This document shows, one piece after another, positions 7,889 through 60,104 of a DNA stretch of 64,000 bases. The notes beneath the pieces are model-generated. The model was not told the origin of the DNA. It was given only the letters and a program-made list of their open reading frames with translations, and did not search any database. Numbering within the stretch: position 1 is the stretch's first letter; each line of letters starts with the position of its first letter. The DNA comes from Actinomyces oris. Lineage in GTDB: Bacteria; Actinomycetota; Actinomycetes; Actinomycetales; Actinomycetaceae. Made by a program: the position numbers and the translations under genes. Where the stretch lies: the NCBI RefSeq assembly GCF_006546825.1, contig NZ_VICC01000001.1, positions 1 through 64,000 on the forward strand. The letters are read 5' to 3'.

Positions 7889-8884
7889 TCAGAAGGCCGG
7901 GACGAAGACCTCGACGCGGCGGTTGAGGCGGCGACCGGCGGGGTTGTCGGAGCCGTCGGGGTTCTCGTTGGGGGCCACCGGCTTGGTCTCGCCGTAGCCG
8001 ACGGCCTCCAGGTCGGCGGCCACGCCGTCGGACTTCAGGGCGCTCGAGACGGCCTGTGCCCGCTGCTCGGAGAGCTTCTGGTTGAAGGCGTCGTCGGAGA
8101 CGGAGTCGGTGTGGCCCTGGACCTGAACCTTGGGGGCCTTGGAGTCCTTGATGACGGTGGCCAGGTTGGTGAGCGTGGTCGAGGCCTCGCCGCGCAGCTC
8201 CGATGAGCCGAAGTCGAACAGGACGCTGTCCTCCAGGGTGATGACGGTGCCGCAGGACTGCACGGGCTTGGCGGCGTCGATGGAGGGGAAGGTGCCCACC
8301 TTGCCGGCCTTAGGAACGGGCTTGGCCGAAATCGTGGAGCCGTTGACGATGGCGGTGCCGTCACCGTTGTTGGTGATGGAGAGCTTGCCGTCAGAGTAGG
8401 TGCCCGAGCCGTCACCGTTGTTGGTGATGGAGACCCCGGAGCGGCTGTAGGTGCCCGAGCCCTTGCCGTCGAGGGTGATGGACTCCCCCGTGGTGGAATT
8501 GCTGTAGGTGCCTGATCCGTCACCGTTGACGGTGACCGAGAGGTAGTCGTCGCTGTAGGTGCCCGAGCCGTCACCGTTGACGGTGATGGAGACCTTCCCG
8601 TCGGAGTAGGTGCCCGAGCCGTCACCGTTGTTGGTGATGGAGACCTTGCCGTCGCTGTAGGTGCCCGAGCCGTCACCGTTGTTGGTGACCGAGGTGCTCC
8701 CCGAGCTCGTGGTCATCGAGCCATCACCGCCCAGGACCGTGGAGCCGGAGACGAGCGATCCGCTCGCGTCGCAGCGGGCGGGCCTGACCGTGATGCCGGG
8801 CTGGGAGGTGATGGAGCGCGTGAGATCCGGGGTGAAGGCGCCCGTGGACTGGGTGAGCAGGCTGAGATCGGGCAGGGAGATCAT
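7889..8884 (-). CDS. OmpA-domain protein with seven 17-residue repeats; signal peptide out of frame
   Basis: From the first in-frame ATG (8884) the protein has 331 residues: a leader-less N-terminus, seven repeats around NGDGSGTYSDGK (residues 65-182), a linker, and an OmpA-like peptidoglycan-binding domain with GHTDSVSDDAFNQKLSEQRA and NRRVEVFV. Upstream, the same frame stays open and encodes a perfect lipobox (LSGC) followed by CSLSVGGG, but no ATG, GTG or TTG occurs before a stop codon. The expected ATG (9141) is one base out of frame. So the intact gene almost surely encodes a lipoprotein that tethers to the cell wall, and this copy is either broken at the start or carries a sequencing error. 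Confidence 0.7.
   Translation of the reverse strand: MISLPDLSLLTQSTGAFTPDLTRSITSQPGITVRPARCDASGSLVSGSTVLGGDGSMTTSSGSTSVTNNGDGSGTYSDGKVSITNNGDGSGTYSDGKVSITVNGDGSGTYSDDYLSVTVNGDGSGTYSNSTTGESITLDGKGSGTYSRSGVSITNNGDGSGTYSDGKLSITNNGDGTAIVNGSTISAKPVPKAGKVGTFPSIDAAKPVQSCGTVITLEDSVLFDFGSSELRGEASTTLTNLATVIKDSKAPKVQVQGHTDSVSDDAFNQKLSEQRAQAVSSALKSDGVAADLEAVGYGETKPVAPNENPDGSDNPAGRRLNRRVEVFVPAF
8339..8692. repeat. In-gene tandem repeats, 51-bp unit
   Basis: Seven imperfect copies of a 51-bp unit encode NNGDGSGTYSDGKVSIT-type segments. Copies differ mainly at NN/VN and at the DGK/DDY/RSG positions, and one unit carries a three-residue insertion (NSTTGES). The regular spacing suggests a stacked beta structure and a potential for copy-number change by recombination. 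Confidence 0.85.
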
Positions 8885-36384: not shown

Positions 36385-37634
36385 GGCCTCCTCTCCCCCG
36401 CCCCGGGCAGTGCGTCAAGGCCGGTGCGGGCGAAGGCCTGCGGGCCGATCCGCTCCCGCAACGCAGATACGGCCGGGCCGGGCCTGAGGCGGCCGTCGCC
36501 CGTCACGTGCAGGGCCTCCTCGCAGATGAGGACCGCTCCGGCCGGGCTCGCCTCACGCCGCAGCACGCCGATGGAGCCGACATAGCGGCGCGCCCCGGTG
36601 GTGCCGGCCTGCCGGCGCAGGTGGACGACGGCGTCGAGGGCGCTGGCCGCCTGGGCGGCGACAGCCGCCTCGTCGAGTCCCGCGAGGGCCCCCAGGGCGG
36701 TCAGGCGGGCAGGGACGTCGGCGGGCGAGTTGGCGTGGAGGGTGGCCCAGCCGCCCTCGTGGCCGGTGTTGAGAGCGGTGAGGACATCGCGCACCTCGGG
36801 GCCGCGGCACTCTCCCAGCACGATCCGATCGGGCCGCATGCGCAGGGCGGTACGCACCAGGGAGGTCATGGCGACCGCCCCGACGCCCTGGACGTTGGCG
36901 CCGCGCTCCTGAAGGTGGACGACGTGGGGGTGGAGGGGGCGCAGCTCACTGGCCTCCTCGATACACACGATGCGCTCGGTGGCCGGGACGAGTGAGAGCA
37001 GGGCGGCCAGGAGGGTGGTCTTGCCGGTACCGGTGGCGCCGGTGACCAGGCAGCTGGCGCGGCCGGCCACCAGGGCGGCCAGGACCTCGTCCAGGCCGGG
37101 GGCGATCGTGCCGGCGGCGGTGAGCTCGTCCAAGGTGAAGCCGCGGCGGCGCTTGGTGCGCAGACTGATGAGAGTGCCATCGGCGCTCAGGGGCGGCAGC
37201 ACCGCGTTGAGTCGGGTGCCGTCGGGCAGGGTGGCGTCGACGACGGGGCAGGCGTCGTCGAGGCGCTTATGCGCGGAGGCGGCCATGCGCACGGCCAGGG
37301 CCCGCACCTCGGGCTCATCCATGGCGGCTGCGGGGACCGGTTCGAGGCCGCGCCCCCGGTCGATCCAGGTGCGCCCGTCGCTGACGAGGACGTCGGTGAC
37401 GCCCTCGGTCTCGATGAGGGGCTGGAGGATCGGCCCGGCGCCGTCGACGTCGGCGCGCACCCTCTGGCCCAGGCGCGCCATCCCCACCTGTCCGGTGGCG
37501 GGGGCGGCGGCATCGTTGAGGGCCTCCTCCAGACCCACGCCGCGAGCCAGGGCGCTGCGGACACGGGCGAGCTCGGGGCCGTCTGCCCCACCCCCGCCGG
37601 AGGCACCTGGCTGACCGGGACTTACCGGGACCAT
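36381..37634 (-). CDS. tadA: Tad secretion ATPase TadA (CpaF-like)
   Basis: A 417-residue hexameric ATPase that powers Tad pilus assembly. Walker A is GATGTGKTTL, the Asp box is IVCIEEASELRP, Walker B is RPDRIVLGECRGPE, and the His box is GHEGGWATLHANSPAD. The N-terminal CpaF domain has VTDVLVSDGRTWIDRG. It overlaps tadZ by 13 bases and the fused tadB/tadC by four. All motifs needed for ATPase activity are present although no pilin gene is nearby. Confidence 0.92.
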   Translation of the reverse strand: MVPVSPGQPGASGGGGADGPELARVRSALARGVGLEEALNDAAAPATGQVGMARLGQRVRADVDGAGPILQPLIETEGVTDVLVSDGRTWIDRGRGLEPVPAAAMDEPEVRALAVRMAASAHKRLDDACPVVDATLPDGTRLNAVLPPLSADGTLISLRTKRRRGFTLDELTAAGTIAPGLDEVLAALVAGRASCLVTGATGTGKTTLLAALLSLVPATERIVCIEEASELRPLHPHVVHLQERGANVQGVGAVAMTSLVRTALRMRPDRIVLGECRGPEVRDVLTALNTGHEGGWATLHANSPADVPARLTALGALAGLDEAAVAAQAASALDAVVHLRRQAGTTGARRYVGSIGVLRREASPAGAVLICEEALHVTGDGRLRPGPAVSALRERIGPQAFARTGLDALPGAGERRP

Positions 37635-38848
37635 GACTGCCTCCTGGACTGATCGCCTGACTGATTCACTGACTGGCTCGTTGGCCGGCTCGCCGACTGA
37701 TTCGCCAACTGGTTCGTTGTGCGGGTCTCCGACGCTGCGGCGTCGGCGAGCCGGGGCAGCAGCTCGCGGGCCAGGGCGCTCGCGGCGCGCCGGAGGGCCG
37801 AGCGGGACCGCACCGGGTCCTCCCCGAGGGCCAGCCGCTTGGCCAGGACCCGGTCGGTGGGCACCTGCCCCAGGACCGGGCAGCCGGTGATGAGCTCGAG
37901 GTCCTCGGCGAGGACGTCCTCACCCACCTGGCGCGCCACGAGCCAGACCGGCACCCCAGCAGCGGCGTCGGCGGCCGCGGCGGCTTCAGCATCGGCGGCC
38001 ACGACAGCGGCGGGCGCCGTGCCCCGCAGTCGCGAGGCGATGCTCTCGGCGGCGACGGCCGAGCGCAGGTCGAGCCCGGTGACGATAAGGACCCCGGCGC
38101 CCGGCGGCGGGGACGCCCCGCGGGGCAGGTCCACCAGCACGACGTCGTGCTCGGCCCGCATGGCCTCCAGGACCGCCGCCGCGCACGGCAGGGGGCCTCC
38201 GCGCACATCCCCGGTGAGGACCGGCATGGCGTGCCACACGGGCAGTGCCCCGACGAGGTGGCCGGGCCGGAAGGCCGACTCCTCTGCCGGCAGGTCCGCC
38301 CAGCGCAGCCCGGTCAGGACGCTCTGCCCGCACAGGAGGTCCAGGCCGCCGGTGGGGTCGAGGTCCATCATCGCCACCCGTCTGCCCGCGCGGCCCAGCG
38401 CCCACGCCAGGTGCAGCAACAGGACGCTGGCCCCCTGGCCCCCGCGGGCGCCGGTGACGGCCAGGACCTGGGCAGGGCGCCCCGAGCGCGCCGCCCCCGG
38501 GATCCTTCCCCTCTCCCCCGGCTGTGCCTCAGCACCGGACTGCGCAGGCTCACCGGCGGAGGGCCTCAGGGGAGGGAAGGAGACGTCTCGGCCGTCCCAC
38601 ACCGGCCTGCGCCCCGTCGCCGGTCTGACCCGCGCCACCTGCCTCGCCCTGGCTCCTTCCGTGGCCTCCGACGTCGGGTCCTTCTCCTCCGGCTCTGGAG
38701 CCGCCGCGCCCCCGGACGCCGCCACTGCCGGGATGGTCAGCGTCTCCTCCGGCTGCGCCGATGTCCCAGGCAGCTGTGGCTGCCCCGGCTGCCATGCGCC
38801 GTCCCCTGCGGGAACGGGCGTCTGCCTCACAGGCATCTCCACCGGCAT
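37622..38848 (-). CDS. TadZ/CpaE-like localisation ATPase (septum-site-determining Ssd family)
   Basis: A 408-residue MinD-like protein. A disordered Pro/Glu-rich N-terminus (about 130 residues) precedes the P-loop-like VTGARGGQGASVLLLHLAWALG, MMDLDPTGGLDLLCG and a switch region VLVDLPRGA. The first Lys of the deviant Walker motif is replaced (GARGGQGAS), as in actinobacterial Ssd/TadZ. It places the Tad machine in the cell. The last 30 residues are a Gln/Ser/Asn-rich tail (NQLANQSAS ... NQSGDQS) from repetitive DNA at 37640-37720. GGAG lies before the ATG; it is divergent from a HAD gene, as in mycobacteria. Confidence 0.83.
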   Translation of the reverse strand: MPVEMPVRQTPVPAGDGAWQPGQPQLPGTSAQPEETLTIPAVAASGGAAAPEPEEKDPTSEATEGARARQVARVRPATGRRPVWDGRDVSFPPLRPSAGEPAQSGAEAQPGERGRIPGAARSGRPAQVLAVTGARGGQGASVLLLHLAWALGRAGRRVAMMDLDPTGGLDLLCGQSVLTGLRWADLPAEESAFRPGHLVGALPVWHAMPVLTGDVRGGPLPCAAAVLEAMRAEHDVVLVDLPRGASPPPGAGVLIVTGLDLRSAVAAESIASRLRGTAPAAVVAADAEAAAAADAAAGVPVWLVARQVGEDVLAEDLELITGCPVLGQVPTDRVLAKRLALGEDPVRSRSALRRAASALARELLPRLADAAASETRTTNQLANQSASRPTSQSVNQSGDQSRRQSWSR

Positions 38849-58834: not shown

Positions 58835-59125
58835 GGGAGCTCCTTGTCTGCGGCGGGTGCTTGGAGGGTGATCTCAGGCTGCTCGGTCCTTCACCTTCTC
58901 GGCACCTTCTCGGGCGAGAGGGGCCCGCGGGCGACGGGATCCGGGGCGCTCAGAACGCTCCCGAAGCGCGGACCAGCAGGTGGACTGGTCGTGAGCAGCC
59001 TGGCACGGTGGGCGACCCGGGCCAACCGGGTTCCCACGGGGAGCGAACACCGACGTGACGGAGGACTCAGCCAATCCGATTTCCTCCCCGCGGTGGGGGG
59101 AGGCTATGCTGTCGCCTGCTGCACA

Positions 59126-59202
<77 letters not shown>

Positions 59203-59214
59203 AGGAGGAAACCC

Positions 59215-59427
59215 ATGAGCTTGCTCATGAGGTTTCCGACGCGTAGGGGTCGAAAGGCCGAAGGCCTAAGCACCCCGACGACGAGGACGTCCGCGAGCTT
59301 GCTCGTGAGACGCCCGAGGAGGAAGGGGTCGACAGGCCGAAGGCCTGAGCACCCCGACGACGAGGACGTCCGCGAGCTTGCTCGTGAGACGCCCGAGGAG
59401 GAAGGGGTCGACAGGCCGAAGGCCTGA
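59215..59427 (+). CDS. Possible small basic/acidic protein encoded by the tRNA-linked repeats
   Basis: An open frame of 70 residues. AAGGAGG (59202-59208) begins on the last base of the tRNA CCA and lies six bases before the ATG, an unusually good ribosome binding site. Since 79 is not a multiple of three, successive repeats are read in different frames: the first part is Arg-rich ([20 protein letters not shown]), the last 22 residues acidic ([17 protein letters not shown]). No homologue is recognised. It may not be translated, because the start codon sits in a stem. Confidence 0.3.
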
Positions 59428-59441
59428 GCACCCCGACGATG

Positions 59442-59473
59442 AGAAGGCCTGCGAGTTCGCTCGCGGGCCTTCT
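59442..59473 (+). terminator. Terminator-like hairpin with UUCG loop closing the tRNA-Pro repeat array
   Basis: AGAAGGCC (59442-59449) pairs with GGCCTTCT (59466-59473) and GCGAG with CTCGC around a TTCG tetraloop, with one wobble pair: 14 pairs without a bulge. UUCG is an exceptionally stable loop. It lies in the truncated fourth unit, where the sequence departs from the others. No U-tract follows. Confidence 0.7.
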
Positions 59474-59642
59474 GCCGTCCCGGGGCCGGCCCTTGCCCGA
59501 CCATCGAACCTGCCCCACATCCCCCACATTGCGGGCGTTCGCTCACGCGGCCCCTCGCTTTGCGGTCACGCCCGCACTGGACAAGGCCGCCGGCCACACG
59601 GCCTACTCTGAGGCGGGGACACCACCGGGAAGGAGGCCACAC

Positions 59643-60104
59643 ATGCCGGATCCCAGCACCGAGCTCGAGGAGCTGCGTCGCAGGGTCGAGGAGCAGTCCC
59701 ACCGAATCGATGAGCTCCAGGACGCCCTCCACACACTGTCGATCGCGGTCCAGTACCGGCAGGAGGAGCCCTACCTGGCCTTCCTGGCGGAGCACGGCAT
59801 CGCCGGCCGACGGCGGATCGCCCTGATGACGGCTATCGCCGGAGTGCTATCACGGGCGCAGGGCGAGGTGCTTCCCGTCGGCCCTGGTGCTCGCGACGAG
59901 CTTCTGCCGGACTACCCCGCCCTGGCCAAGGCCTACCTGCCCGAACCGATCGACGACGACGAGGCCATCCGCATCGTCGGAGAGGTCCTGGGAAGTGAAC
60001 GCCTCGGCGCCCAGGCACTCGAGGCCCACCGCGCCCGCGGCCTGGGTCGCGAGGGCCACCAGGCGCTCACCGGGCGTTCAGACACCCAAGGCCACCACAC
60101 GTAG
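59643..60104 (+). CDS. Unknown small protein with N-terminal coiled coil
   Basis: A 153-residue cytoplasmic protein not recognised. Residues 5-40 (ELEELRRRVEEQSHRIDELQ) form a coiled coil with clear heptads; the middle is helical (GRRRIALMTAIAGVLSRAQG); the C-terminus is acidic then basic. GAAGGAGG precedes the ATG at 59643. Codon use is like that of its neighbours, so it is probably real. No operon partner is obvious; the next gene is 149 bases away. Confidence 0.75.
   Translation: MPDPSTELEELRRRVEEQSHRIDELQDALHTLSIAVQYRQEEPYLAFLAEHGIAGRRRIALMTAIAGVLSRAQGEVLPVGPGARDELLPDYPALAKAYLPEPIDDDEAIRIVGEVLGSERLGAQALEAHRARGLGREGHQALTGRSDTQGHHT

Follow-up and report, generated by a model that had tools for sequence, protein, structure and literature searches.

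In the window analysed here (the whole stretch of 64,000 nucleotides of Actinomyces oris DNA), the gene encoding tRNA-Pro(CGG) is followed by tandem repeats that carry copies of the tRNA 3′ end. Is this array more than a local curiosity, what might it do, and how far does it resemble the rtT repeats of Escherichia coli to which the earlier note had likened it? The array is real, structured and kept in part of the genus and of the family.

A tandem array of structured units follows tRNA-Pro(CGG)

The locus consists of tRNA-Pro(CGG), three 79-bp units spanning 59199-59435 and a terminal hairpin. Its features are as follows, R1 being the covariance model of the unit.

59126..59202, + strand: tRNA-Pro(CGG), the host gene, with CCA encoded at 59200-59202 (ARAGORN; Rfam RF00005, 66.7 bits)
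59199..59277, + strand: unit 1, 79 bp, beginning at discriminator base A73 (unit parse; R1, 60.5 bits)
59207..59237, + strand: hairpin 1 of unit 1, with helices of 7 and 6 bp on either side of a bulged A, and a CUUG loop (sequence; consensus structure)
59246..59276, + strand: hairpin 2 of unit 1, in which x′ GGGGT (59246-59250) pairs with ACCCC (sequence; consensus structure)
59271..59277, + strand: X of unit 1, the copy CACCCCG of the tRNA 3′ acceptor strand (sequence)
59278..59356, + strand: unit 2, 79 bp, with hairpin 1 at 59285-59315 (one A.C mismatch), hairpin 2 at 59325-59355 and X at 59350-59356 (unit parse; R1, 76.3 bits)
59357..59435, + strand: unit 3, a copy of unit 2, with hairpin 1 at 59364-59394, hairpin 2 at 59404-59434 and X at 59429-59435 (unit parse; R1, 76.3 bits)
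59436..59477, + strand: terminal partial unit with a hairpin-1-like hairpin at 59443-59472, UUCG loop, no bulged A (sequence; R1, 30.9 bits)

The earlier note had placed CACCCCGAC at four positions exactly 79 bases apart, and this element was indeed recovered at 59192 (inside the tRNA), 59271, 59350 and 59429 with that spacing. Its description of the array also held in the other respects: two units are identical (units 2 and 3 in the unit parse), the sequence and the consensus structure bear out two hairpins per unit, and a UUCG-loop hairpin closes the array at 59443-59472. Tandem Repeats Finder reported 59245-59443 with a period of 79, 97% matches and a score of 377, the highest of its 29 rows in the window; other tandem repeats lie at 8357-8729 and 37634-37733, with periods of 51 and 36. 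The folding energy computed for the RNA from 59200 to 59490 was -171.8 kcal/mol compared to -123.2 ± 5.6 kcal/mol for 200 shuffles (z -8.7), a value to be read with the fact that tandem copies can also pair with one another.

When the 3.17-Mb genome was searched with R1, the array alone stood above background, with four matches (76.3, 76.3, 60.5 and 30.9 bits). No further array copy was found in this genome, the 11 other matches at E <= 10 reaching at most 22.6 bits; the five of these that were inspected had no array structure, and the 22.6-bit match lies in apparent coding sequence. In Rfam scans of the window, as in those of 12 related loci, tRNA was the sole family at gathering score. At E <= 10, nine further matches were listed in the array region, all far under their gathering scores, and two such matches at one other locus (L220). 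Our literature search, which says little on RtT, brought up no account of repeats downstream of tRNA genes in Actinomyces or of the pairing rule described below, and the portions of PMC7160235 and PMC8040213 at hand contain nothing on such arrays.

Units share one plan and covary as RNA hairpins

All units follow the plan X - hairpin 1 - x′ - hairpin 2 - X, where X repeats the final stretch of the gene upstream and x′ is complementary to X. In the consensus unit with X = CACCCCG, X is followed by ACGACGA, hairpin 1, GAGGAGGAA, x′ (GGGGT), the inner hairpin 2 and X; its hairpin 1 has the helix lengths, bulged A and loop listed above for unit 1.

Covariation was assessed on an alignment (A2) of 20 of the 33 distinct tRNA-linked units; the 13 omitted units, among them both distinct units of the window, have a different hairpin-2 loop or length and were misaligned. 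From the underlying set one false unit (L014_u2) had been taken out, and two cut-off units had been put in by hand. In the 20 aligned units, 95.9% of the cells were paired and 33 double-side changes were counted compared to 10.1 in shuffles, and none of 500 shuffles matched both values. Shifting the structures by 1 to 3 columns lowered pairing to 28-47%.

Hairpin 1 combines compensatory changes with conserved tandem G.A mismatches, and reads as a structure of the sense strand. The flanking tandem steps, of the sheared type, are A.G in 20, G.A in 19, A.G in 20 and G.A in 19 of the 20 rows, and the pair held between them varies (C-G in 14 rows, U-A in three, and G-C, U-G and C.A in one each). 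Since the opposite strand would carry T.C mismatches, and since G.U cells outnumber A.C cells in this hairpin by 16 to 2 (10 of the 16 falling in a single column pair), the fold is assigned to the sense strand. Hairpin 2, formed by x′ and the next X, is weaker: 88.9% of the cells of its outer stem are paired with zero double changes, and over the whole hairpin A.C cells exceed G.U cells by 8 to 3.

The closing stem follows the host gene

Judged from the sequences compared, X and x′ are shown to change together between hosts, namely tRNA-Pro(CGG/TGG), tRNA-Pro(GGG), tRNA-Ser and the protein genes ettA, arcA and glgB. Behind tRNA-Pro(GGG) (three genomes, G095-G097) the stem is GGGC/GCCC, and behind tRNA-Ser(UGA) (G116) it is GGAAAGGT/ACCTTCC with a bulge. 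When the x′ stretches of seven hosts were reassigned to the X stretches in all ways, the true assignment had the lowest summed duplex energy of 5040 (mean -12.9 compared to -8.1 for the others), although the stretches were chosen by eye and the window proline and serine rows were not won by their own x′.

The protein genes extend this rule. Actinomyces ettA, arcA and glgB, each identified on one example by NCBIfam on C-terminal fragments, are followed, in arrays or singly, by units that agree with the tRNA-linked ones in approximate length and in the design of hairpin 1, and whose seed is the gene end, which encodes TRD and the stop (L157-L174, L176 and L192-L197). In alignment A4, which used 20 of the 23 distinct protein-gene units, 98.9% of the cells were paired, 33 cells carried double changes compared to 10.0 in shuffles, and the G.A steps were present in 18-20 of the 20 rows. 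One X/x′ column pair alone reads A-U in nine rows, G-C in nine, G-U in one and another combination in one. In the window genome itself, ettA is not followed by an array. Because arrays also stand behind protein genes, mimicry of a tRNA is not the general point of the design.

Distribution in Actinomyces

The earlier note had suggested looking for the array behind tRNA-Pro(CGG) in other Actinomyces genomes, where copies were found in 26 of the 49. Sixteen loci had no units (one of them, in G009, holding a unit remnant), one genome (G060) had a displaced unit without its tRNA, and six were not read at this place. The 26 arrays count one to three units each, three of them being degenerate (G027, G028 and G032). 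A tally of 36 of the 49 genomes at E <= 0.1 was set aside, as it includes weak matches elsewhere. As the array is absent from 16 of the 42 loci read, it must be dispensable. Behind tRNA-Pro(TGG), units occur in seven genomes, in one of them degenerate (L043-L046, L065, L085 and L087).

Three pairs of filled and empty sites were compared (L023/L026, L017/L029 and L015/L025). Where the array-less relative has a terminator directly adjoining the tRNA, the filled site has the units between the two. In the tRNA-linked cases read, units stand directly 3′ of the gene and on its strand, a placement for which the searches partly select. The CCA of tRNA-Pro(CGG) is encoded in three of the 26 array-bearing loci, the window tRNA being one of the three, compared to eight of the 16 array-less loci (Fisher p 0.011, kinship not removed).

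Across the searches as a whole, some occurrences depart from this arrangement. Units without a full tRNA were seen at four loci (L053, L099, L111 and L224), some beside a stray tRNA 3′ piece, like the far end of an integrated element. A. timonensis (G067) has five dispersed copies (L187-L191) in inverted arms of 25-35 bp that differ by place. Three matches of one genome (g49; L105-L107) are not tRNA-linked and were unconvincing, and weak matches in G021 and G059 were located in unrelated sequence.

Distribution beyond Actinomyces

Counting Actinomyces, seven genera of the family have tRNA-linked units, behind proline or serine tRNAs in the six further ones; among these genera are Arcanobacterium, Varibaculum, Mobiluncus (M. 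porci), Trueperella and Ancrocorticia. R1 matched 44 of 213 genomes of the family at E <= 0.01. A scan for the repeated tRNA-Pro end matched 32 of the 213 (the reversed pattern none), one match (G214) being a chance one, judged from the matched stretch. In the order set, R1 matched seven of 396 genomes at E <= 0.001, two of them outside the family and both read, and the pattern matched 13 of 396, its five matches outside the family being put down to chance on the matched stretch alone.

In other actinobacterial families, units are sporadic. The pattern with x′ gave 57 matches in a named species collection, classed as 34 actinobacterial arrays, five Lachnospiraceae palindromes, 13 duplicated tRNAs and five chance matches; 46 of the 57 were read, the remaining 11 being Actinomyces contigs that presumably hold loci already read, and many of the 34 arrays are family-scan genomes again. 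The 34 also include Demequina, Cellulomonas sp. 73-92, Tessaracoccus caeni, and records of Promicromonosporaceae, Propionibacteriaceae, Ruaniaceae and Bifidobacteriaceae. The scans for X...x′...X covered tRNA-Pro ends and relatives of the unit model. The Lachnospiraceae palindromes (L225, L232, L233, L243 and L262; e.g. TCGGGGTGA..TCACCCCGA) lie after a hairpin behind tRNA-Pro or a stray end.

A possible role as a processed trailer, and the alternatives

In the reading that we prefer, to which we would give an even chance, the tRNA-Pro(CGG) transcript would continue through the array as an RtT-like 3′ trailer, from which small RNAs would then be cut. RNA polymerase would read through the units to the hairpin at the array end, and the usual enzymes would cut the tRNA at its 3′ end, RNase Z doing so where CCA is not encoded. 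Each x′-X hairpin would present a tRNA-like 3′ end and could be cut likewise, yielding stable RNAs of unit length, as reported for RtT; the copy number would then set the dose of the unit RNAs. The rarity of encoded CCA in array-bearing loci fits the RNase Z route. Cutting by RNase Z would be less natural at the window locus, since its tRNA encodes CCA. Also in favour of the trailer are the placement of the units directly 3′ of the gene, the filled and empty sites, the covariation with its tandem G.A steps, the best-scoring X/x′ assignment and the x′/X stem that closes E. coli RtT as well. Against it speak the dispensability of the array, the weaker hairpin 2, the lack of a T run at the window's terminal hairpin, the position of the T-run hairpin ahead of the RtT unit at E. 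coli lysQ and lysV, and the arrays behind protein genes.

In an unlikely alternative, the array would be a switch of tRNA maturation. The x′ of unit 1 would have two possible partners. Pairing with the tRNA 3′ strand would merge with hairpin 1 into a single long hairpin and conceal the 3′ end, and pairing with the downstream X would leave the tRNA free; engagement of the gene 3′ end, by the folded tRNA or, for ettA, arcA and glgB, by the terminating ribosome, would set the register, which would be relayed down the array. In 16 of the 21 loci folded with RNAfold, the predicted partner of the unit-1 x′ was the tRNA 3′ strand (P > 0.6). The mean acceptor-stem probability over the 21 array loci is 0.16 if the tRNA is followed by its natural 82 nt and 0.39 if these are shuffled; for 20 other loci, including four with degenerate units, the values are 0.41 and 0.33. 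The G.A steps extend the helix up to the gene end, and in the arrays behind protein genes this register shows covariation of X and x′. However, RNAfold is a poor judge here, as the tRNA alone reaches an acceptor probability of only 0.37 in most loci; six array-less loci are predicted to be equally disrupted (0.03 or less), and co-transcriptional folding favours the tRNA.

A small non-autonomous mobile element, folding as single-stranded DNA and guided by x′ to X at gene 3′ ends, with tandem copies arising by repeated insertion, would account for the patchy presence with exact empty sites, for the several hosts with matched X/x′, for the dispersed A. timonensis copies with locus-specific inverted arms and for the order of unit types, which differs between close relatives. 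We nevertheless hold it to be distinctly unlikely. The Y1 transposase (PF01797), the sole recombinase searched for, was found in none of the 49 Actinomyces genomes, the same search being positive in five of 14 control genomes; the window genome has no second copy elsewhere, and terminator-like last units suit an RNA better. Repeated integration at the tRNA, which the earlier note had also offered, is likewise not favoured, because the directly repeated sequence measures no more than about 8 bp and RNA-type structure is conserved in the units, although some units are separated from their tRNA in a way that would suit a split by an integrated element.

Less probable still is a set of tandem terminators or insulators that would halt read-through from a strong tRNA promoter. 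The array does lie between tRNA and terminator, its last hairpin is terminator-like in several species, and T runs are present at the array ends of several relatives. In the window, a terminator scan of 58900-59700 found no terminator with a T run, and the last hairpin has none. Against this reading, inner units retain the bulged A and have purines at the would-be T-run site, and hairpin 2 and x′ would be superfluous for termination. Neutral tandem duplication, with template switching and not selection keeping the stems perfect, would suit the unit copies within single genomes, which are often nearly identical, but we find it very hard to credit, since tandem G.A, the bulged A and G.U would be corrected away and yet persist across species and hosts. 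A peptide gene like E. coli tpr, namely the 70-aa ORF at 59215-59427 (+) with a good ribosome site (AAGGAGGA before the ATG) and a basic N-terminus, can practically be discounted: many units contain stops in the translated frame, 35 units measure 77-81 so that the frame shifts between copies, and the window frame is not kept in other units as a tpr-like basic peptide would have it; coding was thus rejected, even if variability peaks at codon position 3 (entropies of 0.27, 0.40 and 0.53 for the three positions over 17 distinct 78-mers).

Comparison with E. coli RtT and other known systems

The processed trailer takes its model from E. coli, where RtT is described, in the part of PMC4986893 available to us, as liberated from the tRNA operon transcript. 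What the earlier note had offered by way of interpretation stands in part: repeated integration is not favoured, and the parallel with rtT reaches further than was claimed, as both arrays carry X and a complementary x′ in each unit and the E. coli x′ varies with the host tRNA. Like RtT, the window array lies directly downstream of a tRNA on the same strand, in tandem copies that hold the tRNA 3′ end, and its units are closed by x′ with the copy of the tRNA end (GGGGT/ACCCC in the window; 88.9% of cells paired in relatives).

Behind tyrV of E. coli K-12 stand 178-bp repeats, every one of which carries the tRNA end AATCCTTCCCCCACCACCA and, 100 nt ahead of it, GGGGAAGGAT, the exact complement of ATCCTTCCCC; the Rfam RtT consensus is closed by the same x′/X stem. 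RtT also stands behind lysT, lysW, lysY, lysZ, lysQ and lysV. In lysT, lysW, lysY and lysZ, x′ is CGTGAAGGAT or CGTGTAGGAT, with one mismatch to ATCCTGCACG, and the argV, argZ and argQ trailers have GGGAGGAT (exact), GGGATGAT and GGAAGGAT (one mismatch each) facing ATCCTCCC. Co-change of X and x′ is thus shown, as far as sequence goes, for E. coli tRNA-Tyr, -Lys and -Arg as well, with another core. The argQ, argZ and argV spacers (L278) have the RtT layout (X, x′ and a GCAACGGCCCGAAGGGCGA core) and are unlisted by the Rfam RtT model at threshold. No such layout was seen behind glnX, proM and valW, and behind metT the next tRNA begins after 9 bases. In lysQ and lysV a T-run hairpin precedes the RtT unit and does not follow it, which argues against one shared place in the transcript.

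By contrast, the cores of the two systems differ, RtT units measure 178 bp compared to 79 bp, X is 18-19 nt long in RtT compared to about 8 nt of acceptor strand in Actinomyces, and the Actinomyces design, unlike RtT, also stands behind protein genes. The window array is not a member of the Rfam RtT family: RtT gave no match in the Rfam scans of the window, and RF00391 (gathering score 45 bits) none in the window genome at E <= 10, one control genome exceeding the cut-off. The array is RtT-like in layout and may work alike. In design, its closest known counterpart is E. coli RtT, the array obeying a wider host rule.

Three other systems are more distant. REP/BIME elements are short repeated hairpins between genes, tandem or dispersed, and to that extent resemble the array; unlike REP with RAYT, the array keeps to one strand, to a fixed place behind the gene and to a host-matched stem. 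The Actinomyces-1 RNA, of which Rfam 15 presumably contains a model, was absent among the Rfam matches at E <= 10 in the window array region. In the portion of PMC8191799 at hand, this RNA, which has a k-turn motif, resembles the array as a structured RNA with tandem G:A pairs; in the array, by contrast, the loops that hold the G.A steps are symmetric and lack the three-base bulge that marks a k-turn. The 3′ETS-leuZ is, according to the K-12 annotation, also a spacer RNA directly 3′ of a tRNA, but has no annotated repeat.

Taken together, these comparisons open the long-standing E. coli rtT puzzle to a comparative approach, since the X...x′...X layout is common to both systems despite different cores, hosts and phyla. 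Tentatively, and with more doubt than confidence, we propose that RtT and the actinobacterial arrays exemplify a single general design, as yet without a name, that tracks gene ends, in which x′ would pair with the real gene 3′ end or a downstream copy, sense whether this end is engaged (by a folded tRNA, or by a ribosome at the stop codon) and relay this state down the array; the palindromes behind tRNA-Pro in Lachnospiraceae may represent an independent third instance. The shared layout, seen behind protein genes as well, suggests that pairing with the gene end, and not any particular sequence, is the point of these arrays.
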